A DNA stretch of 38,894 bases from Clostridia bacterium (GTDB taxonomy: Bacteria > Bacillota > Clostridia > Oscillospirales > CAG-272). Shown here one piece after another: positions 8,361 through 38,655 of the stretch. The stretch is from positions 1-38,894 of the forward strand of contig JAFULC010000021.1 in NCBI GenBank assembly GCA_017483305.1, in the 5' to 3' direction. Both the position numbers and the translations under genes were made by a program. Numbering within the stretch: position 1 is the first letter of the stretch; each line of letters starts with the position of its first letter. The notes under the pieces were generated by a model. It was not told where the DNA came from. It worked only from the letters and a program-made list of their open reading frames with translations, and did no database searches.

Positions 8361-8535
8361 TTAAGTCTCCATTCCGCCGCAGACGGAAATTTCCAAAGCT
8401 CACTTAATTCGCTTCGGGGAACACCGTGGCGGCACAAACAGTAATCGATGAATTTTGCCGTCAAGGCAAAATTCGCGCGTGAAAAAGTATACCTTACTAT
8501 CAAATGGGAGCAACTTTCACGCAATGCTCCTTTTG
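8361..8535 (-). repeat. Dispersed 5'-leader element, copy A (longest copy)
   Basis: This fills the gap between the sulfatase gene and the YidC-fusion gene. In the minus sense it contains GCGTGAAAGT (8522-8513) and its partner TTTTTCACGC (about 8488-8478), a ten-base hairpin GAATTTTGCC/GGCAAAATTC (8450-8474) with a five-base loop, the linker CATCGATTACTGTTTGTG, GCCGCC, an insertion of about 45 bases absent from other copies, then GCGGCGGAATGGAGA just before the ATG. The insertion falls inside the loop of the last hairpin, leaving its arms intact. Confidence 0.8.
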
Positions 8536-10359
8536 TCAGTCGTAAATGTTCTTTTGCAGGTCGATTATGCGGAGCAGCTTCCAGTTTTCAAGCTCCAGAC
8601 CCGAGCCTGCGACCTCGTAGATGGCGTCCTTGTAGATTCCGTTGGGATAGTAGCCCTCAAGTATCTGGAAGTGATAGGGACGGGTGCGCTCCTCGTCCTC
8701 GGGAACGTCGAAGATGTTTATGCCGTAGTCCGAGGCTTTATCGGAGCCTGCGGCGGTGAGGACGGTTGCGAATATGTCTCCCGATCCTATCTGCGCCTTG
8801 GATTCCTTGATCTCGCCCTCGGACACTCCTGCGGGCTTTGCAAGCAGACCCGTGATATGAGGCTTATATGGTCCCTCGTGGTCCGAGCCGATGTCACAGT
8901 GGTCGCCGAGAATTATGATGGTTGAATCCTCGTACACGCCGAGTCTCTTCATTTCATTTATATATGCAGATATGATCTTGAAGCTTTGCTTCATACCGAC
9001 GTTGCTATCGCTCTTTTCTTCTGGCGTTGCGAGGTTAAAATCGGGGCCGTACTTGTTGGGTGTGTGGCATCCTGCAATATGGATGTATGACACGCCGTTT
9101 TTAGAATTGCGGAGCGTGAACGGACCGTTGGTAAGCTCGGTGTAAACATCCTTCATGTCGGTGCGGAAGAGCGCCGCGGGGGAGTCATAGTTTACGTATT
9201 TATCGTAGGTCGTTGTACTGATGTCGCCGAGAGTGTCTCTCATAAGGAAGGGCAGGTAACGGTAGAGCGAAACGCGTGCCATATCCCACGAAAGCGAGGA
9301 GCGGTTGATTATCTCGTAGCTTACGTTGCCTGAGGTGTTCGAGACGAAGTCTCTCATGTGCGTGGCGTTCACATAGCCGTAATAGGAGTCGGTGTAGACG
9401 TTGATGTCAAAGCCCAGCTCCTTGAGCTCTGCCAGGTAGGGAGAGCTGCTGTATGCGGTCTTAAAATATTCCTCTCGGGGCATCGAGAAGTCGGTTGCGA
9501 CGCCCGTTACGATATGCGGTACGCCGGGGTAGGTTCTCGGGTAGAGTGTTATATAGTCGCCGAAATGGGTGAAGCCGTCGAGGTCGTCAAAGATCTCGGG
9601 GCACTCTGCCATTGCCTTGTCGTAGTAGGTATAGTCGAAGCGGTCGACTATGAAGATGACGATGTTTTTGTCGGTGGCGAGGGTGTCGAGATTCTTTACG
9701 GTCAGCACCTCGTTGTCTATATCCGTGTCACCCATATATCCCGTTTTTTCATGGGAGTATACGTCCGTGGTCAGAGAAATGACGAGGAAGGAGATCAGGG
9801 TCATACCGACCAGCGCAACAACGCCGACGGTTGCGATCTGACGGATGAGATCCTTGAATTTATCGAGCAGGAGCATTGCGACTACACAGCCCGCGACCAC
9901 TAAAATCCAGATGATGATATTTACTATGGACTTGGTGGTTGAAATTGCCTCGCCAACGCCGTCGCCTGCAAGCGAGCCTGCGCCGAGACTGAGGTAGTTG
10001 CCCTGAAGAAAGAACATCAGCGACAGACCGAAGAAGAGTCCGAAGCATATATTGAAGGCTCTGCCGCGCAGAAGCATAAGGATACCGAAGACCACGCCTG
10101 CGAGTATCAGCGCCATCGCGCCGCACAAAAGCCAGAAATCCCAGAGGACGAATTTAAATTCGCTCATATTGTTTCCGTAGATCTCGAATGGACCGAAGAA
10201 AAAGAGGGTGATCGGTGCGAAAAGTGCGAGCAGTAGGCTCGGGAGCAGCTTTTCTTTAAAAGTGTAGCCATTGTAGGTCTTTTTCTGTGGCATGCTGTTG
10301 CTCGACTTTGCTTTGGCTGTTGATTTGCCGTAGCTTGACTTCTTTTTGGATTTGCTCAT
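8536..10359 (-). CDS. LTA-synthase-like membrane sulfatase-fold phosphotransferase
   Basis: The protein has 607 residues. A basic Lys/Ser-rich N-terminus (1-30) precedes about five membrane helices (roughly 37-58, 72-97, 101-120, 145-165, 172-198). The extracytoplasmic alkaline phosphatase/sulfatase-fold domain starts near 230: FIVDRFD (236-242), YPRTYPG with Thr276 as the likely nucleophile, GCHTP around His432 and LGDHCD with Asp486/His487 as metal ligands. This arrangement is that of lipoteichoic-acid synthase and phosphoethanolamine transferase relatives. It probably adds or polymerises a polyol-phosphate group on the outer face of the membrane. The gene precedes the YidC-glycerophosphotransferase fusion on the same strand. 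Confidence 0.82.
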   Translation of the reverse strand: MSKSKKKSSYGKSTAKAKSSNSMPQKKTYNGYTFKEKLLPSLLLALFAPITLFFFGPFEIYGNNMSEFKFVLWDFWLLCGAMALILAGVVFGILMLLRGRAFNICFGLFFGLSLMFFLQGNYLSLGAGSLAGDGVGEAISTTKSIVNIIIWILVVAGCVVAMLLLDKFKDLIRQIATVGVVALVGMTLISFLVISLTTDVYSHEKTGYMGDTDIDNEVLTVKNLDTLATDKNIVIFIVDRFDYTYYDKAMAECPEIFDDLDGFTHFGDYITLYPRTYPGVPHIVTGVATDFSMPREEYFKTAYSSSPYLAELKELGFDINVYTDSYYGYVNATHMRDFVSNTSGNVSYEIINRSSLSWDMARVSLYRYLPFLMRDTLGDISTTTYDKYVNYDSPAALFRTDMKDVYTELTNGPFTLRNSKNGVSYIHIAGCHTPNKYGPDFNLATPEEKSDSNVGMKQSFKIISAYINEMKRLGVYEDSTIIILGDHCDIGSDHEGPYKPHITGLLAKPAGVSEGEIKESKAQIGSGDIFATVLTAAGSDKASDYGINIFDVPEDEERTRPYHFQILEGYYPNGIYKDAIYEVAGSGLELENWKLLRIIDLQKNIYD

Positions 10360-10410
10360 AATATATCTCCGTTTTGAATAATAAGTAAGTTTATTTTTAA
10401 TATATTCTAT

Positions 10411-10439
10411 ATTCTAACACACTTTTATACGTTTTTCAA
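10411..10439 (-). promoter_or_regulatory. Promoter of the sulfatase gene
   Basis: On the minus strand, TTGAAA (10439-10434), a 17-base spacer and TAGAAT (10416-10411) lie about 50 bases before the ATG, which has CGGAG at a normal distance. Confidence 0.65.
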
Positions 10440-10490
10440 GGGAATTGTGTAAAACAATTGCTCTTTTATTCTTTTTGTTTGATTTTATCA

Positions 10491-10519
10491 TTGATTTTGT
10501 ATGGATGAGGTGGTATAAT
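10491..10519 (+). promoter_or_regulatory. Promoter of the 10558 gene
   Basis: TTGATT at 10491-10496, a 17-base spacer and consensus TATAAT at 10514-10519 precede the ATG at 10558 by 38 bases. With the sulfatase promoter it forms a divergent promoter region. Confidence 0.75.
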
Positions 10520-10557
10520 TAACTCGGACAGGTGTTTTTTTAGCGCGGAGGTAGAAT

Positions 10558-11457
10558 ATGGACGAGAGAATTGCGGCGGCACTTGATGAGGCGTTTGCTT
10601 CTAACGAAAGGGGAGAAATCAGAAATCTGCTCTTTACGGGCGCAAGTCTTGAATTTCGGTTTGGGGCGCGCTTTTCGGTGCGAGAATGGGCGCAGAGCCA
10701 TAATTTTAACCTTGTTGAGATAGATGAGAGGCGGGAATTTTGGATCCAGAAGATTCAGAACAGGGAGCTTTTTGATCGCCTGAGTCAGCCGAACACGGTG
10801 CTTGTTGTTAAAAATTACGCCTCGGTGAAGTGGGTGGGCGAGAATACGCCGCGAGAATTTATCCGCGAGCTTGCACTGAAGCGTCACTACGGCTGCGGAA
10901 ACGATTTCGTGCCGTCGGATGAGCTGCCCAATCTCAAGCTTGTGGTTGCGATAAACGATCGGTTCGATATGCATTGGGGCAGGTATGAAAGCGACACATT
11001 TGCGGTCGTATACGAGGACGAGAGCAGAAAGATCTGGGTTGATACGACGCGGAGGTCAAAGGTGGCGGGATTTCATCCTGTGTTGTCGGCTATGAACCGG
11101 GGACTTTTTTCGGTCTCTGCCGACAGGCGTACTATTATTGTGCCGTTTGCTTATATTATCAAAAGGCATGCACTTTTTGATCCTTCGCAGGTCGAGCTTG
11201 CCGCCGAGGTCGTGCACAGGCATTTTGAGGAAAACATCCCCGAGTTTTGCGAGGAGGTCGAGTGCTTGATCTTCAAGCCGTCGAAGCGGTGGAAGGAGAG
11301 CCTTGTTGTGCTTGATGCGAGGCGATTGCAGGCGGTGTTTCCTAATTTGAAGACGGTTTGGCATCCGGAGAATTTTGAGGTGAGCGGCGCAGATTCGGAG
11401 ATTTGTGTCAAGAGCTTTTGTGAGCTCGAGGAGCTTGAGCTTGCATCTGTTTTTTGA
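10558..11457 (+). CDS. Unrecognised protein with weak AAA-ATPase-like outline
   Basis: The protein has 299 residues and is soluble, with no signal peptide. I do not recognise a family with confidence. The order of elements recalls an AAA module: LLFTGASLEFRFGARFSVREWA where a P-loop would stand, VLVVKNYAS where Walker B would stand, and LKLVVAINDRFDMHW like the sensor-1 strand (compare VVAATN). However, the GxxGxGKT motif and acidic Walker B residue are absent, so ATP hydrolysis is unlikely if the relationship is real. The C-terminal 120 residues are mixed alpha/beta with no known motif. GGAGG lies about eight bases before the ATG and the gene has its own promoter. The neighbouring repeat begins one base after its stop codon. 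Confidence 0.6.
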   Translation: MDERIAAALDEAFASNERGEIRNLLFTGASLEFRFGARFSVREWAQSHNFNLVEIDERREFWIQKIQNRELFDRLSQPNTVLVVKNYASVKWVGENTPREFIRELALKRHYGCGNDFVPSDELPNLKLVVAINDRFDMHWGRYESDTFAVVYEDESRKIWVDTTRRSKVAGFHPVLSAMNRGLFSVSADRRTIIVPFAYIIKRHALFDPSQVELAAEVVHRHFEENIPEFCEEVECLIFKPSKRWKESLVVLDARRLQAVFPNLKTVWHPENFEVSGADSEICVKSFCELEELELASVF

Positions 11458-11816
11458 TGGCGACCCATCCGGCGAAGATTCGCGCAGCGAAGCTCGATTA
11501 GTGAGAGAAGCGAATGCAGGAATCTAAACGATCAATTCAAATCCACAAGCGGATTTGAATTGTTGGGGTTCGCTTCGGCCTGATAAGTAAGCAATAAAAA
11601 ACAGGAGCAACCAAAGCTGCTCCTGTTATTTATTGGTGACCCATCCGGCGACGTTTTGCGGAGCAAAACTCGATCAGTGAGCTGCCATGGCGGCGAACGT
11701 ATGAATCTGAACGTTCAATTCAAATCCACAAGCGGATTTGAATTGTTGGGGTTCGCCTCGGCCTGATAAGTAAGCAATAAAAAACAGGAGCAACCAAAGT
11801 TGCTCCTGTTATTTAT
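11458..11816. repeat. Two tandem copies of a structured unit carrying the 3' end of tRNA-Glu
   Basis: The units are 176 bases (11458-11633) and 183 bases (11634-11816), and the intact tRNA follows. Each starts with TGGYGACCCATCCGG, identical or nearly so to the 3' end of the tRNA gene (complement). Each then has a short hairpin that keeps pairing although its bases differ (TTCGC/GCGAA in unit 1, TTTTGC/GCAAAA in unit 2), a perfect 12-base palindrome CAATTCAAATCC/GGATTTGAATTG (11533-11562 and 11716-11745), and an AACAGGAGCA/TGCTCCTGTT terminator-like hairpin (11600-11627 and 11783-11810). The region has no plausible coding frame. Confidence 0.85.
11777..11810 (-). terminator. Terminator of tRNA-Glu
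   Basis: On the minus strand, a 12-base perfect stem AACAGGAGCAAC/GTTGCTCCTGTT with a four-base loop is followed by a T-rich run. It lies six bases after the CCA end of the tRNA. A copy with one loop-side change is present in the neighbouring repeat unit at 11600-11627. Confidence 0.85.
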
Positions 11817-11891
11817 TGGTGACCCATCCGGGAATCGAACCCGAGTTTCCAGCGTGAGAGGCTAGCGTCTTAACCGCTTGACCAATGGGCC
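11817..11891 (-). tRNA. tRNA-Glu (anticodon CTC)
   Basis: The 75-base gene folds into a full cloverleaf on the minus strand: acceptor GGCCCAT paired with ATGGGTC, D-arm with AAGCGGTTAA, anticodon stem CTAGC/GCTGG with loop CTCTCAC (anticodon CTC, reads GAG), T-arm TCGGG-TTCGATT-CCCGG and encoded CCA. The first bases, GGCCCATTGGTCAAGCGGTT, are typical of bacterial tRNA-Glu. It is flanked by its own promoter and terminator. Confidence 0.95.
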
Positions 11892-11910
11892 GTATCTTGA
11901 CGACTTGACT

Positions 11911-11939
11911 ATTATAGCACACTTTTTAAAAAAAAGCAA
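11911..11939 (-). promoter_or_regulatory. Promoter of tRNA-Glu
   Basis: On the minus strand, TTGCTT (11939-11934), a 17-base spacer and consensus TATAAT (11916-11911) lie about 20 bases before the mature tRNA 5' end. The -35 box lies within the downstream arm of the phosphopantetheinyl transferase terminator. Confidence 0.7.
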
Positions 11940-12006
11940 GAGGTTTTTGAAAAAAAGTTTAAAAATTTTTTTATTTGGTCGCAATTTGCGAAAAAACCTC
12001 TTGCTT
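11934..12006 (-). terminator. Wide-loop terminator after the PPTase gene
   Basis: A perfect 15-base inverted repeat, AAGCAAGAGGTTTTT at 11934-11948 and its complement at 11992-12006, encloses an A/T-rich 43-base loop. On the minus strand the second arm runs into a T-tract (11926-11935). The first arm begins at the stop codon of the phosphopantetheinyl transferase gene. Confidence 0.65.
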
Positions 12007-12662
12007 CAGGCTTGGCAATCGAAGAAAATTGTCGAAAAATCCCTTGATGTACAAAGGGTTACGGGGACATTGGCGAATTTGAAGCGGTGGACTGTTGTAT
12101 TCTTCTCGAATTCAACGCTTTTGCCGTCTTGACCCGAATTTCGCTTGTTTTTGAGAAATGCAGACAGATTTTCGCCGAAAAATTTTGCTTCGGCTTCGTT
12201 TTCGCTCCAGATCCAAGCGAAGCTTTGTGGATCGTTTTCTACGGATTGGATATCATTCTGCGAGAAAAAGCGTTCGGCGATCTTTTTTGCGCGGTCCCTG
12301 TCGGGCAGGGCTGCCTCGATATCTACTCCGACCTCCTCTAAGTCCGAAAGTGCGCAGGCAACCATGCCTTGCGAGTGCGCGATGTTGAATTTCAGATTTG
12401 AGTCGACGAAATACGGCTTTCCGCATTCGCCGCGAGCAAGCACGAGCGTTGAGGGGTCGATTTTTACGGGCAATTGTGCTATCATATCACACAGAATACT
12501 CAAGGCATAGAGACTCTCGCGCGCCGAGAGCGGATTTGTTTTGCTCTCAAGCGCGCTGATATAGCCGTTATTCGCATTGTTTGGTAGCTTGGCTCTGACG
12601 AGTCTTGCAAGGCTATCCTTGTCTGCTTCGTCGGGCAGCCTCGCGCAACGGAGCAGTATCAT
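12006..12662 (-). CDS. Sfp-type 4'-phosphopantetheinyl transferase
   Basis: The protein has 218 residues. Core motifs of the Sfp/AcpS superfamily are present in order: GKPYF (about 86-90), FNIAHSQGMVACAL, GVDIE with the Mg-binding Asp and Glu, and WSENEAEAKFFG near 155, the equivalent of the usual W-x-x-KE-A-x-x-K with Asn replacing the Lys before the key Glu. It would move phosphopantetheine from CoA to a Ser of an acyl or peptidyl carrier protein. No carrier-protein gene is visible here, so the target may be the housekeeping ACP. The ATG overlaps the hprK stop by four bases (ATGA). The product is cytoplasmic. Confidence 0.82.
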   Translation of the reverse strand: MILLRCARLPDEADKDSLARLVRAKLPNNANNGYISALESKTNPLSARESLYALSILCDMIAQLPVKIDPSTLVLARGECGKPYFVDSNLKFNIAHSQGMVACALSDLEEVGVDIEAALPDRDRAKKIAERFFSQNDIQSVENDPQSFAWIWSENEAEAKFFGENLSAFLKNKRNSGQDGKSVEFEKNTTVHRFKFANVPVTLCTSRDFSTIFFDCQA

Positions 12663-13594
12663 CCGAATACTCCCATCTGCTCCATAAGTCTCTTGTTGAA
12701 TTCCTCGGCGGTATTATATCCCATGCGCTTCTGGCGGTTGTTCATCGCCGCGATCTCAAGGATGATGGCAAGGTTTCGACCGGGCTGTACGGGGATGGTC
12801 AGCGAGGAGACCTGATTGCCAAGTATGTCTATCTTCTCGTCATCAAGTCCGAGTCTGTCGTACATCTTACCCTTTACCCAAGGCTCGAGGTTGATAACAA
12901 GGTCGATCTTCTCGGTCTCCTTGACCGCGCCCATACCGAAAAGACGGCAGACGTCGACGATGCCGATGCCGCGAAGCTCGATATAGTGGCGGATGATCTC
13001 GGGCGCAGAGCCTACAAGGGTTTTGTGCGATACTCGTTTGATCTCGACCGCGTCGTCCGCGATAAGTCTGTGACCGCGCTTGACAAGCTCGATCGCCGTC
13101 TCGCTTTTTCCGACTCCGCTATCGCCGAGGATGAGCAGACCCTCGCCGTAGACCTCGACTAAAACTCCGTGACGTGTGACACGGGGGGCGAGGTGGGTAT
13201 TCAGCGAGCTGATCAGCGCCGCCATAAAGGGGCTGGTGGTCTCCTTGGTTCTGAGCACGGGGGTGCCGTTTTTCTGCGCACAATCCTTGAGCTCGTCAAA
13301 CACCTCGAGCTCTGAGGTGAAGATGACTGCTTTGGGTGTTGCATCGATATAGTCGCTTATTTTTTTGGCTCTCTCCTCGGGATCGAGGCGTTGGAGATAG
13401 CGGTGCTCGGCGTATCCGATAATGCTGAGTCTGTTCTTGTCAAATATTTCGTAAAAGCCCGAAAGGGCAAGGCCCGGGCGGTTGACCTCGGGGGTGTCTA
13501 TCAATATTTCGTCAAAGTTTTCGGGTGTTATGACCTTTTCAAGACTGAATTCGGTTACAAGCTTGGAAAGGGGAATAGTGTATTCGGCGCTCAT
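12659..13594 (-). CDS. hprK: HPr kinase/phosphorylase
   Basis: The protein has 311 residues, the normal length for HprK. An N-terminal regulatory domain (1-130) is followed by the catalytic domain with RHGVLVEVYG, the P-loop GDSGVGKS at 157-164, and the family signature ELRGIGIVDVCRLFG. HprK phosphorylates and dephosphorylates Ser46 of HPr to control carbon catabolite repression in Bacillota. GGAGG sits seven bases before the ATG. It is coupled to the downstream phosphopantetheinyl transferase gene by an ATGA overlap; in many Bacillota the usual partner is lgt instead. Confidence 0.95.
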   Translation of the reverse strand: MSAEYTIPLSKLVTEFSLEKVITPENFDEILIDTPEVNRPGLALSGFYEIFDKNRLSIIGYAEHRYLQRLDPEERAKKISDYIDATPKAVIFTSELEVFDELKDCAQKNGTPVLRTKETTSPFMAALISSLNTHLAPRVTRHGVLVEVYGEGLLILGDSGVGKSETAIELVKRGHRLIADDAVEIKRVSHKTLVGSAPEIIRHYIELRGIGIVDVCRLFGMGAVKETEKIDLVINLEPWVKGKMYDRLGLDDEKIDILGNQVSSLTIPVQPGRNLAIILEIAAMNNRQKRMGYNTAEEFNKRLMEQMGVFG

Positions 13595-13795
13595 TTCGGG
13601 ACCTCCATTTTATAAACTACAAGATAAGTATAACACAAAAATCCGATTTTGGAAAGTCTTTTTTTGAAATATCATCAAAAAAAGTCAAGCAATTCATAAA
13701 ACATTCACAATGATATTGTATAATAAAGTATTATAATGGGTTATTGTACCGTTCTTTGACCTGATTTGAAGATTTTATCGATTTCGGAGATTTTT

Positions 13796-14965
13796 ATGGC
13801 TAAAAATATCAAGGGCTTGAAAGAAGCCGAGGCTAATGGAAAAAAGACTGAAAAGTGGAGCAAAAAGAAAAAGCTCGCGGCTGGAATAATTATTGCGGGC
13901 GTTGCTTGTACTCTCATATTTGCGATTCTGATGACTGTATCGTATTTCAACTCGGTCCGCCCTATAAAGAGCACCGAGGAGGAGTCCAGAGTTGTTGGCG
14001 TGTGCGGTGGCTTTGAGGTCAGGTACGAGGAGCTACGCTACGTTACGTTGCTTTACAAGCAGTCGCTTGACGTCAAGCTCGGCAAATATGACACGCTTGA
14101 CGAGGCAGGCAAGACTGAGTACGAAAAGCAACTCGAGCAGCTTGTGCTTGACGATCTTAAGAGCAACTATATAATTCTTTCTCTTTGCGATGAGTACGGG
14201 ATCAAGACAAATTCGCGCGGCGCGAAGAACTACGTAAACAACGAGATGAAGAAATTTGTCCGAGGGGCGTTTGACGGTGATATGGACAAGTATAAGGCGT
14301 GGCTTGCGGAAAACAATCTGACCGACAGCTTTGTCAGACTTATGTACCGCGTCGACTACCTTGAGTCGCAGCTTCTTGATCATTTCATCAAGAATTCCGT
14401 AAATATCGAATACGACGAGAACACTCTGGGCGCTTTTGCCGATCACATCATGGCGAGCGACGAGTGGGCGAAGGCGATATACGCTTACTACCCCAAGAGC
14501 TCTGTTACCACCGTGCACGACGGACAAAGCTACGTGGTATGGGATGCCGAAAAGAGTCTTCCCACTGCCACTGCTGCCGCCGAGGCACTTTCCGCCATTG
14601 AAAGCGACAGCGAAAGATTTAACTATATGACCAAGACCGTTATCGGAAAGGCTCCTATGGTTCAGGGCTATACGATCACGGGAACAGGAGTTTATTTTAC
14701 GGTCGGTCAGATGGGTGAGGAATTTGAATCTGCCGCATTTGAGCTCGAGCTTTACGGCACGAGTGATGTTATCGAGCTTGACACGGGCTACTACGTTATT
14801 ATGAGGCTTCCGCTTGAGGAGGACGAGGTTAACAAGTCTGCCGCGGAGCTTCTGACACATTATCAGTATGGCGCTTTGAAGAAGTGCGAGGATGCCAAGG
14901 AGGCAGAGATAAGCTTTGTGGGCAACGAGTACTTTGATAGCCTTTCGCTTATTGATATTGAATAA
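13796..14965 (+). CDS. PrsA/SurA-like membrane-anchored foldase
   Basis: The protein has 389 residues from the ATG at 13796, chosen over the in-frame TTG at 13766 because CGGAG lies eight bases before it. A highly basic N-terminus (KKTEKWSKKKK) precedes one signal-anchor helix (about residues 28-50). The extracellular part resembles SurA/PrsA chaperones: an N-terminal helical region with a VCGGFEVRYEELRY start, a long helical middle, and near 300-345 a parvulin-like end (TVGQMGEEFESAAFELELYGTSDVIELDTGYYVIMRL). The catalytic parvulin histidines are not evident, so it may act only as a chaperone. It precedes the 15007 gene by 41 bases and is probably cotranscribed. Confidence 0.7.
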   Translation: MAKNIKGLKEAEANGKKTEKWSKKKKLAAGIIIAGVACTLIFAILMTVSYFNSVRPIKSTEEESRVVGVCGGFEVRYEELRYVTLLYKQSLDVKLGKYDTLDEAGKTEYEKQLEQLVLDDLKSNYIILSLCDEYGIKTNSRGAKNYVNNEMKKFVRGAFDGDMDKYKAWLAENNLTDSFVRLMYRVDYLESQLLDHFIKNSVNIEYDENTLGAFADHIMASDEWAKAIYAYYPKSSVTTVHDGQSYVVWDAEKSLPTATAAAEALSAIESDSERFNYMTKTVIGKAPMVQGYTITGTGVYFTVGQMGEEFESAAFELELYGTSDVIELDTGYYVIMRLPLEEDEVNKSAAELLTHYQYGALKKCEDAKEAEISFVGNEYFDSLSLIDIE

Positions 14966-15006
14966 TCTGAAAAACTAAACGAATTTGTGCAAGGGAGGGC
15001 GAACGT

Positions 15007-15936: not shown

Positions 15937-16078
15937 TATTCGGTTATTGGCGAAATTTTAAAAAATTTTATTAAAAATCACGCAAAAAAAGATATTTTGT
16001 TTCTTTGGGCGTATATTAATATTGCGTAGGGAATTTCCCGGGCGATATTTTGCCGTAACGGGCGGAAAGGATCTGAAT

Positions 16079-20300: not shown

Positions 20301-20364
20301 GGCGAATTTTTTGCCTCAACGCCCGCAAAAACCTTGCCGCGCGAGGCAGAAATGGAGATTTAAC
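20301..20364 (+). repeat. Dispersed 5'-leader element, possible copy F
   Basis: This is the most divergent candidate copy. It contains GGCGAATTTTTTGCC, then CCCGCAAAAACC, a TGCC/GGCA hairpin and GAAATGGAGATTTAAC directly before the ATG at 20365. The ends match the other copies, while the ATCGATT linker is missing. It may be a decayed copy or a chance likeness. Confidence 0.35.
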
Positions 20365-25267: not shown

Positions 25268-25330
25268 AACAATCTCCGTTCCGCCGCCGACAGCGGCGCA
25301 AATAATAATCGGTGAATTTTGCAAAAATAT
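25268..25330 (-). repeat. Dispersed 5'-leader element, copy B (truncated)
   Basis: In the minus sense it retains GCAAAATTCACCGATTATTATTTGCG, the hairpin CGCCGC/GCGGCG (25298-25282, five-base loop) and GGAACGGAGATTGTT directly before the ATG at 25267. The left arm of the first hairpin is lost upstream of about 25322. Confidence 0.7.
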
Positions 25331-28383: not shown

Positions 28384-28391
28384 GTTATCTA

Positions 28392-29105: not shown

Positions 29106-29107
29106 TT

Positions 29108-30699: not shown

Positions 30700-30716
30700 T
30701 AATTTTCGCCAAACTA

Positions 30717-30745: not shown

Positions 30746-30789
30746 TTATCTATAAGACGTAAAGAGGTCAACTATAGGGAATTGAACCG

Positions 30790-30866
30790 CTTCACGCGCA
30801 ATTTGCCGATGGCAAAATTCAACTATTACTATTTGTGACGCCGCAAGCGGCGAAATGGGGTTTTTT
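30790..30866 (+). repeat. Dispersed 5'-leader element, copy D
   Basis: It contains TTCACGCGC, the first hairpin AATTTGCC/GGCAAAATT (30800-30819, three-base loop), the linker CAACTATTACTATTTGTG, the second hairpin CGCCGC/GCGGCG (30839-30852, two-base loop) and GAAATGGGG just before the ATG at 30867. The second hairpin has changed its loop and arms relative to copies B and C while staying paired. Confidence 0.8.
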
Positions 30867-32024: not shown

Positions 32025-32058
32025 GATTTGTAATAATTTTTGGTGGGAGGTTTTGCTT

Positions 32059-32496
32059 ATGTTGAACACACCTTTTGGAACTATTAAGATTTGTGTAGAC
32101 GGAGTTTGTACGGATTACGAGGCTGTGGCAATTAATTTTACACGCCCGCCATGTGATAAAAAACCGATAGCCGCATGCTACCGTATAGAAATACCTGCAA
32201 AAAATTGCGACTCGATTGCCTGCAAATTGGAGCCCGTGGACATCGATATTATCAACACGGGAGATTCGGGCGAAAGCTATTTGAATGCTCAATTTATAAA
32301 GGATAAATGCATTTTGACTATTGGAATGGAGGACGACAATCCCGCCTTTGAGTCACTTTGCTTGCCGTTTGGGTTGCAGTATAATTTAATTTGCCCGATT
32401 GACAAGGTAGTTTTCGGCATTGCTTGGGCAACCGATTATGAATGTGATGGCGACGTTCGCACTTGGTTTGCCGCAGACCCGACGATTTCATCATAA
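32059..32496 (+). CDS. Unrecognised small soluble protein
   Basis: The protein has 145 residues. The ATG at 32059 follows GGGAGG at a normal distance. It lacks membrane segments and is unusually rich in Cys (CVDGVC, CDKK, ACYR, NCDSIACK, KCIL, LCLPFG, LICP, YEC). The sequence reads like a small beta-sandwich or jelly roll: repeated short strands with Asp/Asn turns. I find no family. Codon use is plainer and richer in A/T than the neighbours, perhaps indicating a recently acquired gene. It follows alaX after 34 bases and could be cotranscribed. Confidence 0.55.
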   Translation: MLNTPFGTIKICVDGVCTDYEAVAINFTRPPCDKKPIAACYRIEIPAKNCDSIACKLEPVDIDIINTGDSGESYLNAQFIKDKCILTIGMEDDNPAFESLCLPFGLQYNLICPIDKVVFGIAWATDYECDGDVRTWFAADPTISS

Positions 32497-32500
32497 AAAC

Positions 32501-32526
32501 ACCCCCGACAGAGCTTCTGTCGGGGT
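32501..32526 (+). terminator. Hairpin after the 32059 gene
   Basis: ACCCCCGACAGA pairs with TCTGTCGGGGT around a three-base loop, with a weakly T-rich end. It overlaps almost directly the stop codon of the preceding gene. Confidence 0.6.
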
Positions 32527-32562
32527 ATCCTTTCATTTGTGGAAGTTTTTGCCGGAGGGGAG

Positions 32563-32608
32563 TGCAGAGGGGAACCTGCTTTTTTCAAAAAGCGGGTTCC
32601 CCTCTGCA
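32563..32608. terminator. Very long bidirectional hairpin
   Basis: Two 22-base arms, beginning TGCAGAGGGGAACC, pair fully except for one G-T wobble, with only two unpaired bases between them. Runs of T and A near the tip come from the arm ends. It lies between the convergent 32059 gene and potD. The stem is longer than most terminators in the window. Confidence 0.75.
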
Positions 32609-32615
32609 TTTATTC

Positions 32616-33878
32616 TTAATAACTGTTTCTCTTACGCTTTCTGATGCCGAAGAAGGTGACGAAGCCGACGAGCGAGCCGACGATCGCTATACAGATGATA
32701 TAGATCGTGGGGCTTACGTCGATATCCGATTTCAGCTCCTCCCAGAGTTCATTGATAAGGGCGAGCTTTTCGGGAGTGAGGTTTTCGTAATAGGTTGCTT
32801 CAACGCGGTCAAGGGCGTACATTTTTTCAAAGGCGTCGTCCTTGATCTCGTTCATATAGTCACGGTACTCTTCGCTCTCAACGACCTTTGCGTTGGGAGA
32901 GGCGTAATAGGTGTATTCGGCGTTCGCTATTGCGGGAGCGCCGTATTTTTCGTCTACGCTGAGCATAAAGTTGATGTATCGCTCTGCCACCGTTTTATTT
33001 GTCGATGTCTTGGGGATACACATAGCGTCGACGTAGAGGTTCGTACCCTCGGAGGGGTAGAAGAAGTCGAGGCTCTCGTTGTTTTCGTACATAGTCAGGA
33101 AGTCGCCTGCATAGTATGCCGCGATCGCAGCACTTCCGCCCTCCATCTTATTGAAGATCTCGTCCATGACATAGCCCTGAACGATATTCTTTTGCGCTTT
33201 GAGCTCCTCGAGCGCGCGTCTCCACTCGGCTTCGTTGTCGGTGTTGACGTCGATTCCAAGCTTATACTGCGCGGTGCCGAGTGCGTCGCGGGAGTTGTTG
33301 AATTGCAGGATGTTGCCCTTGTACTTTTCGTTCCACATAATATCCCACGAGCCGATGTCCTCCTCGTCTACCATCTCGGTATTATAGATGATGCCGATCA
33401 TTCCGTAGAAATAGGGGACGGAGTATACGCTGCCCTCGTCGTAGTAGTCGTATTTTGCGTTCTCGCCGAAGAATTCGGAGTCGAGATTTTCCTTTGCCAA
33501 GGGGATGTTATCGTAGTTGAGCGGAGCGAGCTTGTCCTCCTTGATGAGTCGCTCGATCATATAGTCCGAGGGGACTATGACGTCGTAGCTGACCGCGCCG
33601 CCCGAGAGCTTGGCGTACATATCCTCGTTGGAGGAGTAGGTCGAATAGCTGACCTTAACTCTTTCGCCGAAGGTGTCGAAGTACCATTTTTCAAACTGCT
33701 CGTTGGAGTCTACCGAATCCTCGCTTCCGTCGGAGATATATTCTCCCCAGTTGTAGACGTAGAGCGTAGTCACGTTGCCGCTATCACCCGAGCTATCGCA
33801 ACAGATGAGGCAACAGCAGGATGCGGCAAGGAGGGAAAGGAGGAGCAGAGCGGAGATGATCTTTTTGATATTTTTCAT
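32616..33878 (-). CDS. potD: Polyamine-binding lipoprotein PotD with extra C-terminal helix
   Basis: The protein has 420 residues. The signal peptide ends in a Cys-rich lipobox region (AASCCCLICCDSSGD), leaving several candidate lipidated cysteines. The mature protein starts TLYVYNWGEYIS, the PotD/PotF signature, with SYDVIVPSDYMIERL, PYFYGMIGIIYN and CIPKTSTNK as ligand-site blocks. Unusually, a membrane helix (about 390-410, TIYIICIAIVGSLVGFVTFF) and basic tail IRKRKRNSY follow the binding domain. It captures spermidine or putrescine outside the cell for PotABC. Last gene of the operon; its ATG abuts the potC stop with no gap. Confidence 0.92.
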   Translation of the reverse strand: MKNIKKIISALLLLSLLAASCCCLICCDSSGDSGNVTTLYVYNWGEYISDGSEDSVDSNEQFEKWYFDTFGERVKVSYSTYSSNEDMYAKLSGGAVSYDVIVPSDYMIERLIKEDKLAPLNYDNIPLAKENLDSEFFGENAKYDYYDEGSVYSVPYFYGMIGIIYNTEMVDEEDIGSWDIMWNEKYKGNILQFNNSRDALGTAQYKLGIDVNTDNEAEWRRALEELKAQKNIVQGYVMDEIFNKMEGGSAAIAAYYAGDFLTMYENNESLDFFYPSEGTNLYVDAMCIPKTSTNKTVAERYINFMLSVDEKYGAPAIANAEYTYYASPNAKVVESEEYRDYMNEIKDDAFEKMYALDRVEATYYENLTPEKLALINELWEELKSDIDVSPTIYIICIAIVGSLVGFVTFFGIRKRKRNSY

Positions 33879-34688
33879 TTACGCCACCCCTTTTCTCTTT
33901 TTCTTCTTGTTGACCGAGCCCGTAAAGTTGACTGCGAGCAGGATCGCAAGAATGATCGCTACGATAAGGGCGCAGAGCGCGTACATACTGAACTTGACGT
34001 TGTGTACGGTCTGGTTATAAACGTAGAGGGGAAGTGTCTGGAAGTTCGGCGAGCTTACGAAATGGCTGATGACGAAGTCGTCGAGCGAGAGCGTGAAGCT
34101 CATCATAAGCGCCGATACGATGCCGGGCACTATTTCGGGGAGCTCAACCGAGAAGAATGCGCGGGAGGGAGTGCATCCCAGATCCTGAGCAGCCTCGGAG
34201 AGCGATTTATCGAGCTGGTTGAATCTCGGCATGATTGAGAGCAGAGCATAGGGCAGGTTGAAGGTCGTGTGCGCTATGAGCATTGTTCCGAAGCCGAAGA
34301 ATTGCTTTGCGCCAATGAAATTGGCTACCGCCACGAAGAGCAGCATCATGGATACGCCCGTGACGATATCGGGGTTCATCATAGGTATGTTGGTGATTGA
34401 TTTCACCGCGCCCTTGACATATCTGTTTCTCATGTGGTGAAGTCCAAGCGCGGCAAAGGTTGCTATGCTTGTTGCTATCACCGAGGAGCTGACCGCGAGG
34501 ATGAGGGAGTTCTTCAGTGCGGTCAAAGCCTCTTCGTCGCGGAAGAGCTCGCCGTACCATTTTAGAGATATGCCCGTGAATTCGCTGAGCGAGCCGCCGT
34601 CGTTAAACGAGAAGACGATGAGCACCACGATTGGCGCATAGAGCAGGGCGAATATAATGAACATATAGAATTTGGACAGAAATTTCAT
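33879..34688 (-). CDS. potC: Spermidine/putrescine ABC permease PotC
   Basis: The protein has 269 residues and about six membrane helices, with the permease EAA loop SLSEAAQDLGCTPSRAFFSVELPEIVPG. It matches PotC in length and in the end SLDDFVISHFVSSPNFQTLPLYVY. The ATG at 34688 shares its A with the potB stop TAA (TAATG) and has GGAGG about 11 bases upstream; an earlier in-frame start at 34736 would overlap potB more. With PotB it forms the membrane channel. Confidence 0.93.
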   Translation of the reverse strand: MKFLSKFYMFIIFALLYAPIVVLIVFSFNDGGSLSEFTGISLKWYGELFRDEEALTALKNSLILAVSSSVIATSIATFAALGLHHMRNRYVKGAVKSITNIPMMNPDIVTGVSMMLLFVAVANFIGAKQFFGFGTMLIAHTTFNLPYALLSIMPRFNQLDKSLSEAAQDLGCTPSRAFFSVELPEIVPGIVSALMMSFTLSLDDFVISHFVSSPNFQTLPLYVYNQTVHNVKFSMYALCALIVAIILAILLAVNFTGSVNKKKKRKGVA

Positions 34689-35509
34689 TATATGATCACA
34701 CCTCCTTCGTCGTCGGAGAACTTGTTCATGATCCATACCGAAATGAGAATGAGTATCATCATAACGAGGGAAATGACCGCGCCGACGTTATAGGTGCTGG
34801 TGTTCTGGAAAAGTCGCTCGATAGTGTCGCCGATCAGGTCGATCTTACCTGCACCGAGCTTCTGAGAGATGTAGAAGGTGCTGATAGAGGGAACAAAGAC
34901 CATAGTCACGCCCGAGACGATACCCGATGCGGTGAGGGGAAGGACGACCTTTGTCATAGTCTGGATATTGTTACAGCCGAGGTCGTGCGCCGCCTCGATA
35001 TAGCGGTTGTCGAGCTTTGTGATCGACGTGAAGATCGGCAGCACCATATAGGGCAGGAAGTCGTAGACCATACCGAGAATAACGCCGAAGTCCGAGCCGA
35101 CGATGTGGAGTTTGTCCAGTCCAATGCTCTCAAGGAAGGAGTTGAGCAATCCGCCGTTGTCGAGCAGAGCCATAAGCGCATAGGTGCGGATAAGCAGGTT
35201 ACACCACATAGGGAGCATTATAAGCACCATAAGCAGCTTCTGCGTTTTCGGCTTGCTTCTCGCCATAAAGTACGCGAGGGGGTAGCCGATAAGCAGGCAG
35301 ACTACGGTTGCTATCAATGCAAACGCGATCGACAGGACGAACACGTTGCCGTACTGCGAGAGCGTTGAGATGTTTGAAAGGGAAAAATGTCCGTCTGCAT
35401 CGGTAAACGCGAAGTAGAGGACGAACAGCATCGGCGCCACGATGAATAAAACCATCCAGACAATGTGGGGAGCCGCCGCCATTTTCTGAAAGAGCGAGCC
35501 TTTTTTCAT
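34688..35509 (-). CDS. potB: Spermidine/putrescine ABC permease PotB
   Basis: The protein has 273 residues and about six helices. The EAA loop is [27 protein letters not shown], and the N-terminal half includes the PotB-like [35 protein letters not shown]. The ATG overlaps the potA stop by four bases (ATGA). Partner of PotC. Confidence 0.94.
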
Positions 35510-36639
35510 TCCTCTCCCTCCTCTTCGGGCTCGGTGGGATCGGCAAGCTGGTCAAGCTCGTCCGAGAATGAGGAATAGTCGCCGAACATACCCGAGAATT
35601 CGGACTTGTTCATAATATGTATTGCTTCGGGCTCAATGAAAAGACCGATATGCTCGCCTTCGGCGACGAAATCGGTGGTCTGTATCATCCACTTGAAGCC
35701 GTTGATGTCAACGATGATCTCCCAGTGAACGCCCTTGAAGGTGACCGAGGTAACAGTGCCCTGAAGCATACCCTTGTCGGATGAAACTACGTCAACGTCC
35801 TCGGGGCGTACTACTACGTCGACCTTCTGATTCTTTTCAAATCCGGCGTCGACACACTCGAAGGTGTGTCCCGAGAAGCGAACCTTATAGTCCTCAAGCA
35901 TAATGCCGTCGACGATGTTACTCTCGCCGATGAAGTCTGCTACAAAGGCATTTTCGGGCTCGTTGTATATATCAGTGGGGGAGCCTATCTGCTGTATCTG
36001 TCCGTTTGCCATAACGACTACGGTGTCTGACATGGAGAGCGCCTCCTCCTGATCGTGAGTGACGTATATAAATGTGATACCCGTTGCCTTCTGGATCTTT
36101 TTAAGCTCGTTCTGCATATCCTTGCGGAGCTTGAGGTCGAGCGCACCGAGTGGCTCGTCGAGAAGCAGCACCTCGGGCTCATTGATAAGAGCTCTCGCGA
36201 TCGCAACTCTCTGCTGCTGACCGCCCGAAAGGGTGCTTACGCGACGGCGCTCAAAGCCCTTGAGGTTGACGAGGGATAGCATTTCCTTGACCTTTGTGCG
36301 AATCGTTTCCTCGGGCGTCTTTTTAAGACGCAGACCGAAGGCTACGTTTTCAAACACGTTCAGGTGAGGGAAGAGTGCGTATTTCTGAAAGACCGTATTT
36401 ACGGGTCTTTGATGAGGGGGGACGTTTTTGACGCTTTTGCCGTCGAATTTTACGTCGCCCGTATCTGCGGTCTCAAAGCCGCCGATTATACGAAGGGTCG
36501 TGGTCTTGCCGCAGCCCGAGGGGCCGAGCAGAGTCACGAATTCTTTGTCGTGGATCTTGAGGTTGATGTGATCGAGAACGATCTCGCCATCAAAGGATTT
36601 TGACACATCAGTCAGGTCGATGATTACTTCTTTTTCCAT
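35506..36639 (-). CDS. potA: Spermidine/putrescine ABC transporter ATPase PotA
   Basis: The protein has 377 residues. Walker [12 protein letters not shown]-loop QKYALF, signature LSGGQQQR, Walker B LLLDEP and switch THDQEE are all present. The C-terminal third contains the TOBE-like regulatory beta domain (about 240-350, [26 protein letters not shown]) typical of PotA. An acidic tail ends the protein ([10 protein letters not shown]). First gene of the potABCD operon. The Shine-Dalgarno AAGGAG is 12 bases from its ATG, longer than usual, because a second ATG lies between them. Confidence 0.94.
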
Positions 36640-36646
36640 TACACAT
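36608..36646 (-). CDS. Possible 12-codon upstream ORF overlapping potA
   Basis: An ATG at 36646 is five bases from the Shine-Dalgarno AAGGAG (36657-36652), an ideal distance, whereas the potA ATG is 12 bases from it. This frame encodes [12 protein letters not shown] and stops at 36608, within potA in another frame. It could influence potA translation by re-initiation. No conservation was tested, so it may be coincidence. Confidence 0.3.
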
Positions 36647-36815
36647 AAAAACTCCTTTTAAAATCTGAGATTAGCGTTCCCCTGGGGTCAGGGTCTCGCC
36701 GAAATTTTTGATGCGTTTTCCGACAATGTGTGGCGCGCAGGTCTTGCCTTGCCGTTTCCGTCTTGAACGACAGCTACCGTCCTTGACTTTATAAGGACAG
36801 TAATTAACAGCATAC
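36640..36815 (-). promoter_or_regulatory. Long leader of the potABCD operon
   Basis: The transcript would carry about 170 bases before potA. It holds the hairpin GTCCTT/AAGGAC near the 5' end, and further down GCG-AGA-CCCTG-ACCC-CAGGG-GAA-CGC, a hairpin whose AGA/GAA internal loop could form tandem sheared G-A pairs, then AATC-TCA-GATT with a short T-run. No known riboswitch was recognised. It is an RNA-control candidate. Confidence 0.35.
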
Positions 36816-36844
36816 ATTGTATCATAAATTTACACTAATTGCAA
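36816..36844 (-). promoter_or_regulatory. Promoter of the potABCD operon
   Basis: On the minus strand, TTGCAA (36844-36839), a 17-base spacer and TACAAT (36821-36816). No other promoter is visible in the 400-base gap. Confidence 0.65.
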
Positions 36845-36912
36845 TAGGTTTTAAGAAATTTCCCCAAAAATCACGATTTTTTGTGAAAAACCCAAAAAAA
36901 TCGGCATCGGCT

Positions 36913-36958
36913 TGCGAGTTTTGGAGATTATTTTGAGAAAATCTCCAAAATTCTCGCA
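36913..36958 (-). terminator. Hairpin between cysteine desulfurase and pot operon
   Basis: TGCGAGTTTTGGAGATT (36913-36929) pairs with its complement at 36940-36958 apart from a two-base bulge. On the minus strand a T-rich run follows (36892-36902), so it could end the cysteine desulfurase transcript. The rest of the 36845-37047 gap is A/T-rich with further short TCTCGC/GCGAGA repeats and no gene. Confidence 0.55.
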
Positions 36959-37047
36959 AAATCTCGTTTATTCTCGCGAATTTGCAAAAAATCTCCATCT
37001 GAAAAGTGCATATTGCGTGAATATTCATTTTTACATTCATACGTCGG

Positions 37048-38211
37048 TCACGCGCGGTAGCGATCGGCTATATTACGGATCGAGGTGCAGAGGCTATCGA
37101 CCTCCCCTTCGGTGTTGAATATGCCGAATCCGATGCGGACCGCGCCGCCGTCGGCAGTGCCGAGCGCGTTGTGGGCGAGGGGGGAGCAATGGTAGCCTGT
37201 GCGCAGGCAAAAGCCTCGGTCGGAGAGTAATGCGCCAAGGTTGTCGGCAGGGAGGTCGTTTATATTGAAAAGCAGGACGCTACCCTCGGTGTCGTCGTAG
37301 ATAGTCACGTTTTCGATGGAGGAGAGCTGATCATAGGTTCTTCGCCAGAGCTTGCGCTCGTGGCTTGCGATCGTGTCGAGACCGAAGCTATTGAGAAACT
37401 CTATTCCCGAAACAAGTCCCGCAATGGCAGGTGTACAGAGCGTGCCGCTCTCGTATCTCTCGGGGCTTTCGTTGCCCATTGAGAGCTCGAGCGAGTTGAC
37501 TCCGTTTCCGCCCTCGGTGAGAGTTGCGAGCTTTTGAAGCCCCTTTCGCATTATCATTATGCCGCAGCCCTGCGGAGAGTAAAGACCTTTGTGCGCGGGG
37601 AGACAGAGGATGTCGATGCAGTCCTTTTCCATATTGATCGGCAAATGACCTGCGGATTGGGCGGCGTCAACGCAGAAAAGTATGCCGTGACGGCGGCATA
37701 GCTGCCCGATCTCGCGAATCGGGAGGGAATAGGAGCAGATATTTGAGGAGTGGATGCAGGTCAGCATTTTCGTGTCCTTGCGGAGCTTGGAGATCACGTC
37801 TGCGAGGATATCCTTTGCAGTCAGGGGCTTGGATCTGTCATAAGCCTTGAAGATATCGTAGCGCAGGACGTTGTCTCTTGCCATTCTTGCCGCAGGGCGA
37901 AGGGTGGAATTGTGCTCCATATTGCTGATGAGCATGTGTCCGCCGCCGCTCATCACTCCCTTTATCGCCATATTGAGCGCGTAGGTGGTGTTGAGCGTAA
38001 AGACGACGTTTTCGGGAGTGCTGCCGAAGAAATCGGCGAGGGCTACTCGCGCTTCAAAGACCTTTTCGGCGCTCATCATTGCGATCGGGTGAGAGCCGCG
38101 CCCCGCGTTGCCGCAGTAATCGCTCATACATTCATAGGCGGCGTTAAGCACGCTCTGAGGTTTGGGAAACGTAGTGGCGGCGTTGTCAAAATATATGATG
38201 TTTTGTTGCAT
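37048..38211 (-). CDS. Cysteine desulfurase / class V aminotransferase (SufS-like)
   Basis: The protein has 387 residues. It opens with YFDNAATTFPKP, the class V signature. The pyridoxal-phosphate Lys lies in PAHKGLYSPQGCG (about 209-221), the His for cofactor stacking in NMEHNS, and the persulfide Cys in RTGYHCSPLAHNALG near 343. It would take sulfur from cysteine (or selenium from selenocysteine) to a carrier, giving alanine. It follows the DUF3343 gene on the same strand, a partnership common in Clostridia. GGAG precedes the ATG. Confidence 0.9.
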   Translation of the reverse strand: MQQNIIYFDNAATTFPKPQSVLNAAYECMSDYCGNAGRGSHPIAMMSAEKVFEARVALADFFGSTPENVVFTLNTTYALNMAIKGVMSGGGHMLISNMEHNSTLRPAARMARDNVLRYDIFKAYDRSKPLTAKDILADVISKLRKDTKMLTCIHSSNICSYSLPIREIGQLCRRHGILFCVDAAQSAGHLPINMEKDCIDILCLPAHKGLYSPQGCGIMIMRKGLQKLATLTEGGNGVNSLELSMGNESPERYESGTLCTPAIAGLVSGIEFLNSFGLDTIASHERKLWRRTYDQLSSIENVTIYDDTEGSVLLFNINDLPADNLGALLSDRGFCLRTGYHCSPLAHNALGTADGGAVRIGFGIFNTEGEVDSLCTSIRNIADRYRA

Positions 38212-38241
38212 TTGTGGATCTCCTCTCGTGATGTATATTGT

Positions 38242-38276
38242 AAAAAACGCCCCTCACCGATGCTTTGGGAGGGGCG
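38242..38276 (-). terminator. Terminator between DUF3343 and cysteine desulfurase genes
   Basis: On the minus strand, CGCCCCTC/GAGGGGCG (38276-38248) with a 13-base loop is followed by six T residues (38247-38242). It lies only five bases after the DUF3343 stop and 30 bases before the cysteine desulfurase start. Confidence 0.82.
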
Positions 38277-38280
38277 GCGA

Positions 38281-38526
38281 TCATCGCAGATATTCTTTTA
38301 CGTCCACGCCTGCCGTTGAGAGTGTTGAGCGGACGCTGCCGAGGGAGGCGCAGTCAAATTCCACGCCGTATATGCAGCCCTTGCTTTTGCTTCCCACTCC
38401 GACCTTGACCACCTTGGCACGCAAGGCTGATTTGCCGAGCGCTCTTTGCGCGGTCATTGCAGACGTCATTGAACCCGTCACGGCGGTACATACCGCCTGC
38501 GGTCGGTATGATATATCGTTTCTCAT
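38281..38526 (-). CDS. DUF3343-like putative Se/S carrier protein
   Basis: The protein has 81 residues from the ATG at 38526, whose GGAG belongs to repeat copy C. It matches DUF3343 in length and pattern: TGSMTSAMTAQRALGKSALRAKVVKV, the GCIYGVEFD segment with a single conserved-looking Cys (KGC), and an alpha-helical end. DUF3343 is described as a putative selenium/sulfur carrier and is usually beside a cysteine desulfurase, as here. The Cys in KGC is the likely carrier residue. The assignment rests on resemblance and neighbour. Confidence 0.75.
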   Translation of the reverse strand: MRNDISYRPQAVCTAVTGSMTSAMTAQRALGKSALRAKVVKVGVGSKSKGCIYGVEFDCASLGSVRSTLSTAGVDVKEYLR

Positions 38527-38655
38527 TTTTATCTCCATTTCGCCGCCTGAGGCGGCACAAATAACAATCGATGAATTTTGCCGCAGAGGCAAAATTCGCG
38601 CGTGAAAAAGCAGATTTCATTATTAGAAGAAAGTGACTTTCACGCTAAGCTCCTT
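38527..38655 (-). repeat. Dispersed 5'-leader element, copy C (best preserved)
   Basis: In the minus sense: AAGGAGC, GCGTGAAAGT (38645-38636), about 30 variable bases, TTTTTCACGCGC, the hairpin GAATTTTGCC/GGCAAAATTC (38597-38573, loop of five), the linker ATCGATTGTTATTTGT, the hairpin GCCGCC-TCA-GGCGGC (38556-38542) and GAAATGGAGATAAAA before the ATG at 38526. The first and last arms can also pair (GCGTGAAA with TTTCACGC). Confidence 0.85.

Follow-up and report, generated by a model that had tools for sequence, protein, structure and literature searches.

Analysis of a 38,894-nucleotide (nt) stretch of DNA from Clostridia bacterium (assembly GCA_017483305.1, contig JAFULC010000021.1; the whole stretch is here called the window) revealed dispersed copies of a structured unit of about 117 nt that carries its own Shine-Dalgarno sequence (SD). 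The units are placed at translation starts in a single orientation. Their presence and absence differ between close species, and the unit is mobile. In consensus, the ends of the units are common to them and to IS110-family elements of other Clostridia. It is probable that the units are a mobile translation-initiation cassette and the non-autonomous kin of an IS110 lineage that targets sites of translation initiation. The common ends support the tie to IS110, which for the units of the window we infer.

Identification and structure of the unit

The window is contig C10 of a 63-contig genome of 2.01 Mb (2,013,555 bases; genome code G000). One copy of the unit in the window (copy C, 129 nt) was used as a probe and gave 43 matches at E≤1 in its own genome. 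From these, 25 full-length copies were extracted, and 24 were aligned to build the covariance model R1, which has 117 positions. Among the copies of the window only C was in this training set; A, B, D, and E were left out. A search of the whole genome with R1, of the kind proposed in the initial annotation of the window, returned 57 places at E≤1, of which 46 were at E<0.01. The dispersed family described in that annotation is real, as the model recovers five of the six copies listed there (A to E). The comparison with Rfam proposed along with it matched no family to a unit. Rfam covariance models run against the window matched no unit at the gathering threshold or at E≤5, and those run against 16 loci of relatives gave no match at the gathering threshold.

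The unit consists, in order, of a mini-open reading frame (mini-ORF) start, hairpin 1 with the mini-ORF stop, hairpin 2, a linker, the GC hairpin 3, and a new SD. In the sequence of the copies, the left end reads (T/C)AGC-GTG-AAA and contains the mini-ORF start. Hairpin 1 (GCGTGAAA..TTTCACGC) has a loop of about 30 nt, and the mini-ORF starts within this hairpin and stops within its loop. Hairpin 2 (GAATTTTGCC..GGCAAAATTC) is joined by the linker ATCGATTACTATTTGTG to hairpin 3 (GCCGCC..GGCGGC), the loop of which holds further sequence in some copies. GGAATGGAGAT comes after hairpin 3 and is itself followed usually by four bases and then by the start codon.

In 58 sequences of the window's genus, 94% of the cells of the three hairpins were paired. 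Changes on both sides were found in 11 of 24 pairs, compared to 3.9 in shuffles, and sliding the partners by 1 to 3 columns left at most six pairs with two-sided changes. None of 500 shuffles was as high on any of five measures, in a control that ignores relatedness; this result and the 46 genome matches at E<0.01 show that the family is not a chance finding. The mean unpaired probability of the new SD was 0.39 in 65 copies, compared to 0.29 in 100 shuffled leaders, and the GTG of the mini-ORF is buried (mean unpaired probability, 0.18). Sequestration of the SD, as in an RNA thermometer, was considered because the fold of some copies pairs the linker with the SD. It was rejected, as across the 65 copies the SD is not hidden.

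Inserts in the loop of hairpin 3 occur in copy A (8365-8524) and in L016, L017, L025, L035, and L011; several of them are a GGGGTTCCCCGAAG-like hairpin repeat. A differently built unit, which is invisible to R1, was seen at about position 4595 of L349 (G009:C26:24595-24643). It has a GCGTGAAAG hairpin and a second hairpin, stands between two AACAAGGAGAT copies, and precedes an AbrB/SpoVT-like gene.

Position of the units at start codons

The positions of the units were analyzed in 1.12 Mb of stretches chosen around matches in three species (G000, G009, and G011), with 91 R1 matches in total. Within 8 nt downstream of 81 matches, an ORF that encodes 60 or more amino acids begins (80 ATG and 1 GTG; 63 at exactly 4 nt). 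Two further matches lie just before an ATG that the end of the model overshoots, so that 83 of the 91 are at start codons. The other eight are the 5' members of head-to-tail arrays, in which the next unit occupies the place of the start codon. None of the 91 lies away from a start codon or an array, and the random orientation that the initial annotation had named as evidence against a leader role was not seen. A further 467 kb (457 kb from G000), some stretches of which were chosen because they contained known matches, yielded eight matches, all at start codons or in an array and all among the earlier genome matches. In other genomes, 20 of the 22 best-match loci examined precede an ORF. As an additional observation, two partial units stand one behind the other in L364 (G000:C55:11490-11689), and an ATG immediately follows the second.

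Inspection of the left flank revealed a second SD immediately to the left of the unit. It was present within 14 nt in 67 of 76 copies, compared to 7 of 76 in a control window before it. The distance from this old SD to the GTG is most often 6 nt, the same as that from the new SD to the real start, which is 6 nt in 61 of 81 copies. The spacing between the SD and the unit varies among copies.

The mini-ORF

Read from the GTG, the frame reaches a stop within 12 codons in 67 of 76 copies, mostly after 6 to 10 codons. The peptides include VKVTSI and VKVAFI (V read as the start). The consensus contains three consecutive in-frame stops, and in single copies one or two of these are lost. There is statistical support for retention of the mini-ORF stop. 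One or more frame-0 stops were present within hairpin 1 in 40 of 40 non-redundant ungapped copies, compared to 33.9 (standard deviation, 1.8) when alignment columns were permuted, and 1 of 2000 column permutations was as high; copies with insertions or deletions in hairpin 1 were left out, and the permutation does not model the tree. A shuffle test of the upstream frame itself (67 of 76 compared to 36.6 shuffled) ignores common descent, and the column permutation is preferred.

Filled and empty sites in close species

The gene starts behind 36 copies of the window's genome were used for an orthologue search in G004, G009, G011, and G008. Among the matches listed, 72 without a unit were retrieved with their upstream DNA and scored with R1. 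An orthologue in G004, G009, or G011 was obtained for 33 sites, and 22 of these lack the unit in at least one of the three genomes (21 with the paralogue case L098 set aside). The initial annotation had suggested a mobile unit that donates a ribosome site; the empty sites and the position of the copies before the start codons of unrelated genes, in sense orientation, strongly support this.

Many empty sites consist of a plain host SD, a spacer, and ATG. At lon, the empty site in G004 and G011 reads ACGAGGTCCATAA-ATG, compared to ACGAGGTC-unit-TAAA-ATG at the filled site, and at a transketolase-like gene the empty site of G009 reads GGACATTGAT-ATG, compared to GGACATT-unit-TAAT-ATG. (The names groEL, recA, lon, deoB, rnc, cysS, and transketolase are putative assignments made from the protein starts.) The empty sites of L058, which end in AATGGAGATT, are possibly remnants. 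In seven clean comparisons (left flank identical at 17 or more of 22 positions), the insertion point was 3 nt before the ATG in four cases and 4, 5, and 7 nt before it in the rest. At exact sites, the GTG of the unit takes the former place of the ATG relative to the old SD. No target duplication on insertion was seen in the window's genus, and neither terminal inverted repeats nor target duplications were seen for the units of the window. The 20 pairs of units filled at the same gene are 82 to 99% identical (mean, 92%). Polymorphism within a population was considered at groEL of G004, where a contig begins exactly at the right end of the unit. It is not claimed, as that genome did not yield the filled allele.

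IS110-family elements with the same ends

Searching GTDB species genomes for the exact right end together with ATTAATATG revealed 42 stretches, many of them from genomes named Lachnospiraceae. Nine of these 42 carry a match to one IS110-type transposase. Pfam analysis, which covered the genes of the window and the L287 protein, predicted DEDD_Tnp_IS110 (PF01548; E 6.6e-22) and Transposase_20 (PF02371; E 9.5e-20) in the latter, the only one of these transposases scanned. The carriers are other Clostridia, mainly Lachnospiraceae, and the elements are about 1.66 kb long. IS110 stretches with both ends start after the host SD with TAGTGTGAAAG (TAGCGTGAAAA in L277) and end with the right end of the unit and the ATG of the gene, the transposase being encoded on the other strand. 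The ends of the unit flank the transposase at seven loci with total lengths of 1639 to 1667 bp. The host SD is present on the left at the six loci with the left flank within the sequence; in L282, the left flank is outside the locus.

Two elements of Clostridium sp. AT4 (Clostridiaceae in the NCBI taxonomy) are 99.8% identical over 1683 nt and stand before two different genes. A plasmid of Roseburia sp. 831b carries a copy with 95.7% identity over the whole query that is annotated as an IS110 family transposase; four places were reported for this record, of which the best one was examined. In consensus, the right ends common to the units and the IS110 elements are TTACTATTTGTGCCGCC..GGCGGCGGAATGGAGATT, which flank the loop of hairpin 3; the common left ends are (T/C)AG(C/T)GTGAAA. 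No longer, autonomous unit was found in the examined stretches of the window's genus.

Guide-like stretches in the noncoding region

The bridge RNAs of IS110 elements are encoded in a noncoding end. At 12 loci, a noncoding region of about 300 nt lies 5' of the transposase. All 12 regions contain an SD-like stretch (GGAGGAGGAG, GGGAGGTGAG, GTGAGGTGAG, or GTAGGAGGAG), followed by CATATTAATC or a variant and then by CCGTACACTAAG or a variant. CATATTAATC is the antisense of the right junction GATTAATATG, which comprises the spacer and the start codon. Comparison of the internal stretch with the right junction of the same locus gave 10/10 matches in eight loci, 9/10 in three, and 8/10 in one. The match was reached by 0 to 1 per 1000 shuffles in the 10/10 cases, by 9 to 13 in the 9/10 cases, and by 199 in L305.

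Four loci were found independently of the junction. L347 matches at 10/10 with the common form, L348 at 10/10 with CATGTTAATC on both sides, L369 at 10/10 with CATAATAATC on both sides, and L345 at 9/10 with CATATGAATC at the junction compared to CATATTAATC inside. The matched variants of L348 and L369 mean that the internal stretch follows the variants of the junction twice. A donor-guide-like ACACTA accompanies the left end TAGTGTG in 8/8 cases, and ACGCTA accompanies TAGCGTG in 1/1 (L277). This layout is specific and suggestive of guides and is not proof. RNA-guided targeting of the SD/start region is put forward here as a specific hypothesis. A 127-nt part of the noncoding region also matches, at 77% and with no listed gene, NC_017963.1 (216589-216718) and two other Enterococcus faecium plasmids.

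Distribution of the unit

R1 matches were obtained in 18 of the 59 genomes examined, namely, 10 of 12 in the genus (own genome included), 7 of 24 in other members of the family, and 1 of 23 in other members of the order. In distant copies the ends are kept and hairpin 2 is changed. A looser exact pattern was found in 7 of 391 genomes of the class (own genome included), with 0 in reversed-pattern controls; this pattern sees three places in the window's genome, so that 7 of 391 is a floor. One pattern was searched for in viral contigs, with no exact match. The sole phage match was to 63 nt of the right end, at 96.8% identity, in a phage-like record obtained from human faeces (MT836273.1, 1776-1838).

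Copies of the unit in the window

The copies of the window and the features next to them are listed in Table 1. Copies A and C are full length, and mainly the right half is retained in D, B, and E. In agreement with the sense orientation just before ATG noted initially, all five are on the coding strand and each ends 4 nt before the ATG. Copy F, already called doubtful when it was listed, found no support, having no R1 match at E≤1 in the whole-genome search.

The site of copy C is empty in G009 and G011 (AAGGAGACCCAC/AAGGAGACCCAA-ATG), and the stop of its mini-ORF lies 96 nt upstream of the start of the gene. The site of copy D is without a unit in G004, G009, and G011 (GAGAGGTTTTTT-ATG); the SD of this copy reads GGGG. 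At the site of copy E, the same three genomes have the host SD and then ATG, with no unit. The initial annotation had placed copies C and D downstream of visible promoters. Promoter-like sites do occur upstream of C (10/12 matches) and D (11/12); the scan of that region gave 22 such sites, compared to 8.0 in shuffles.

Table 1. Copies of the unit in the window and their adjoining features
Feature	Position	Strand	Description
Copy C	38531..38647	-	Full length, three hairpins; R1 130.5 bits
Gene behind copy C	start 38526	-	81-amino-acid Se/S-carrier-like protein (PF11823), Pfam at cut-off
Host SD (AAGGAG) displaced by copy C	38650..38655	-	Same flank directly before ATG in G011 and G009
Mini-ORF of copy C	38623..38643	-	GTG AAA GTC ACT TTC TTC TAA, read from sequence
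New SD (GGAG) of copy C	38533..38536	-	Read from sequence
Copy A	8365..8524	-	Full length, three hairpins, 43-nt insertion in hairpin-3 loop; R1 117.7 bits, E 2.5e-22
Gene behind copy A	6294-8360, start 8360	-	Fusion of YidC/60KD inner-membrane insertase domain and CDP-glycerol glycerophosphotransferase domain (Pfam)
Mini-ORF of copy A	8500..8520	-	GTG AAA GTT GCT CCC ATT TGA, read from sequence
Copy D	30790..30866	+	R1 56.8 bits, E 5e-9 over 30755-30862; left half of hairpin 1 degenerate
Gene behind copy D	start 30867	+	Alanyl-tRNA editing-like (Pfam)
Copy B	25272..25330	-	Right half: hairpin 2 remnant, linker, hairpin 3, SD; R1 49.8 bits, E 2e-7 over 25272-25377
Gene behind copy B	start 25267	-	Weak glycosidase match, below Pfam cut-off
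Copy E	661..726	+	Right half, hairpin 2 degenerate; R1 43.2 bits, E 5e-6 over 628-722
Gene behind copy E	start 727	+	DUF4886 (Pfam)
Copy F of the initial annotation	20301..20364	+	GC hairpin and SD only; not accepted as a member

Two other features of the window were recorded. Two 139-nt direct repeats (11510-11648 and 11693-11831), which are 95% identical, adjoin and overlap a tRNA gene (11820-11891, minus strand). A near-perfect inverted repeat of 20 pairs followed by a T-rich stretch (32562-32609) is terminator-like on the plus strand.

Proposed mechanism and points against it

In the proposed mechanism, a unit would enter, always in the same orientation, a few nucleotides upstream of a start codon. 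The host SD would stay on the left, now facing the GTG mini-ORF. The right end would provide hairpin 3 and place a new SD at the normal distance from the start, which would leave the gene translatable. The units may be moved in trans by an IS110 transposase and a bridge RNA, with targets chosen by guides, one matching the SD and another the spacer/start codon. Ribosomes started at the old SD may be absorbed by the mini-ORF, so that the insertion would be tolerated. We are mildly inclined to accept the fuller account, in which the bridge-RNA guides of an IS110 lineage would represent the ribosome-binding site itself and its ends would have evolved into a translation-preserving cassette, with dozens of cassettes of about 117 nt seeded as leaders of core genes (groEL, recA, and lon).

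Several observations weigh against these proposals. The mini-ORF has a start codon other than GTG in 7 of 76 copies, three of which have GCG, and no stop precedes the main start in 6 of 76; the mini-ORF is therefore not indispensable. Two weak matches in other genomes (L083 and L084; 30.5 and 28.7 bits) precede no ORF. Copies at different sites are only about 72% identical on average, and none of 81 copies is more than 84% identical to copy C, which G009 and G011 lack, so that no source copy is visible. In 2 of the 20 same-gene pairs (L102 with L117 and with L136), the members are not mutual best matches. Filling is patchy at deoB (unit present in G000 and G011 and missing from G004 and G009) and at lon (unit present in G000 and G009 and missing from G004 and G011), a pattern unexplained by single gains on one tree; despite this patchiness, the filled copies at both genes are mutual best matches.

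Further points concern the tie to IS110. No such transposase was found in the approximately 869 kb (about 43%) examined of the 2,013,555-base genome, nor in the G009 and G011 stretches or the match loci of relatives examined, and the mobilizer of the genus is unseen. L283 has both ends, is only 1316 bp long, and contains an interrupted transposase match. For ten of the 12 guide regions, the pattern used to find the locus already fixed the right junction, and some of the regions, such as those of L282 and L304, are near-identical to each other. By eye, the SD-like stretch is at no constant offset from the host junction, and the bridge-RNA structure is only putative. Finally, IS110 could have inserted into pre-existing units.

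Alternative explanations

The last point is part of an alternative that we consider unlikely, in which the units form a small mobile family of their own, with another enzyme that recognizes SD/start regions as the mover, and IS110 targets the units or captured their ends, as IS621 uses REP. It would account for the distant units with different interiors and without a transposase and for the lack of IS110 in about 43% of this genome, and IS110 elements are known to insert at repeats (PMC11208160). However, the two IS110 copies before two genes are 99.8% identical through the unit ends, and seven of the eight two-ended loci measure 1639 to 1667 bp, the eighth being L283. Moreover, the internal stretches match the unit ends and junctions and follow their variants.

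Selection after insertion might by itself produce the observed placement if units inserted anywhere and only those at start codons survived, through their own SD or a benefit for expression. The new SD and the retained mini-ORF stop do suggest selection on function after insertion. Yet none of the 91 matches lies elsewhere, although neutral intergenic places exist on both strands, and the eight matches of the further stretches are likewise at start codons or in an array; we give this explanation very little credence. Least probable of all, by a hair, is a conserved cis-regulatory leader RNA that controls a regulon through a ligand, a protein, or temperature. Conserved hairpins with covariation, the promoter-like sites upstream of copies C and D, and the orthologous copies kept between species at many sites are what such an RNA would lead one to expect, whereas the genes are unrelated (e.g., groEL, recA, lon, rnc, and cysS), a sister species lacks the unit at 22 of 33 sites, the new SD is not sequestered, and Rfam has no match. 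On the same grounds (genes without a common pathway, sites that come and go between sister species, no Rfam match), the leader RNA with a common ligand offered in the initial annotation is not upheld. Its description of a structured leader unit with an SD stands; the host SD at the left, the mini-ORF, the arrays, and the IS110 link had escaped it.

Other classes of elements were considered and set aside. REP, DDE-type miniature inverted-repeat transposable elements (MITEs), and IS200/IS605-type elements (fixed tetranucleotide) do not fit the fixed orientation and place, the variable spacing between SD and unit, and the lack of terminal inverted repeats and target duplications; no search for a RAYT/Y1 transposase was made. 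A group II intron (5' GTG, 3' AT) had no Rfam support.

Comparison with known systems

If the proposed origin is true, an RNA-guided transposon lineage has solved the problem of finding targets by homing in on the signal most general to bacterial genes, and it spares the host by replacing the signal that its insertion breaks. Many unannotated leaders in gut Clostridia would then be explained as one large family, with consequences for the annotation of gene starts there. The units would also provide a natural, testable example of how guide RNAs evolve and of translation leaders able to function before many genes. In the searched literature, no title or abstract describing such units was found, and their novelty is as good as that search.

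The closest known systems are IS110 elements with a bridge RNA or seekRNA (IS621 and ISEc21). The relatives with the same ends in other Clostridia encode DEDD_Tnp_IS110 and Transposase_20 behind a noncoding region of about 300 nt, and the units of the window's genus are likewise without target duplication and fixed in orientation. A mini-IS with short ISEc21 ends was reported to be moved (PMC11187229). In contrast to these elements, which target one fixed sequence or REP, the units are found at the translation-initiation regions of unrelated genes. One of their ends supplies an SD and the other a mini-ORF start, and those in the window have no transposase.

REPs are extragenic and occur in both orientations. 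The units do not, with 0 of 91 matches away from a start codon or array; this placement between SD and start codon and the ends common to IS110-family elements speak against the term "REP-like" used initially. The likeness to REP/BIME is that of short palindromic multicopy repeats, which IS110 can target (PMC11208160). BOX, RUP, SPRITE, ERIC, and Correia elements are, as described in the available portion of PMC3049150, short, multicopy, and able to affect the expression of neighbors, and the units are also short and multicopy. The same text notes that ORFs made by BOX lack good SDs, and it mentions for MITE-like repeats no placement between SD and start codon, whereas the units lie there and bring their own SD.

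Synthetic bicistronic-design leaders use a first SD to drive a short leader ORF and a second SD to start the gene. The unit also pairs a first SD and a short ORF with a second SD; unlike the synthetic leaders, it is natural and mobile and has hairpins between them.

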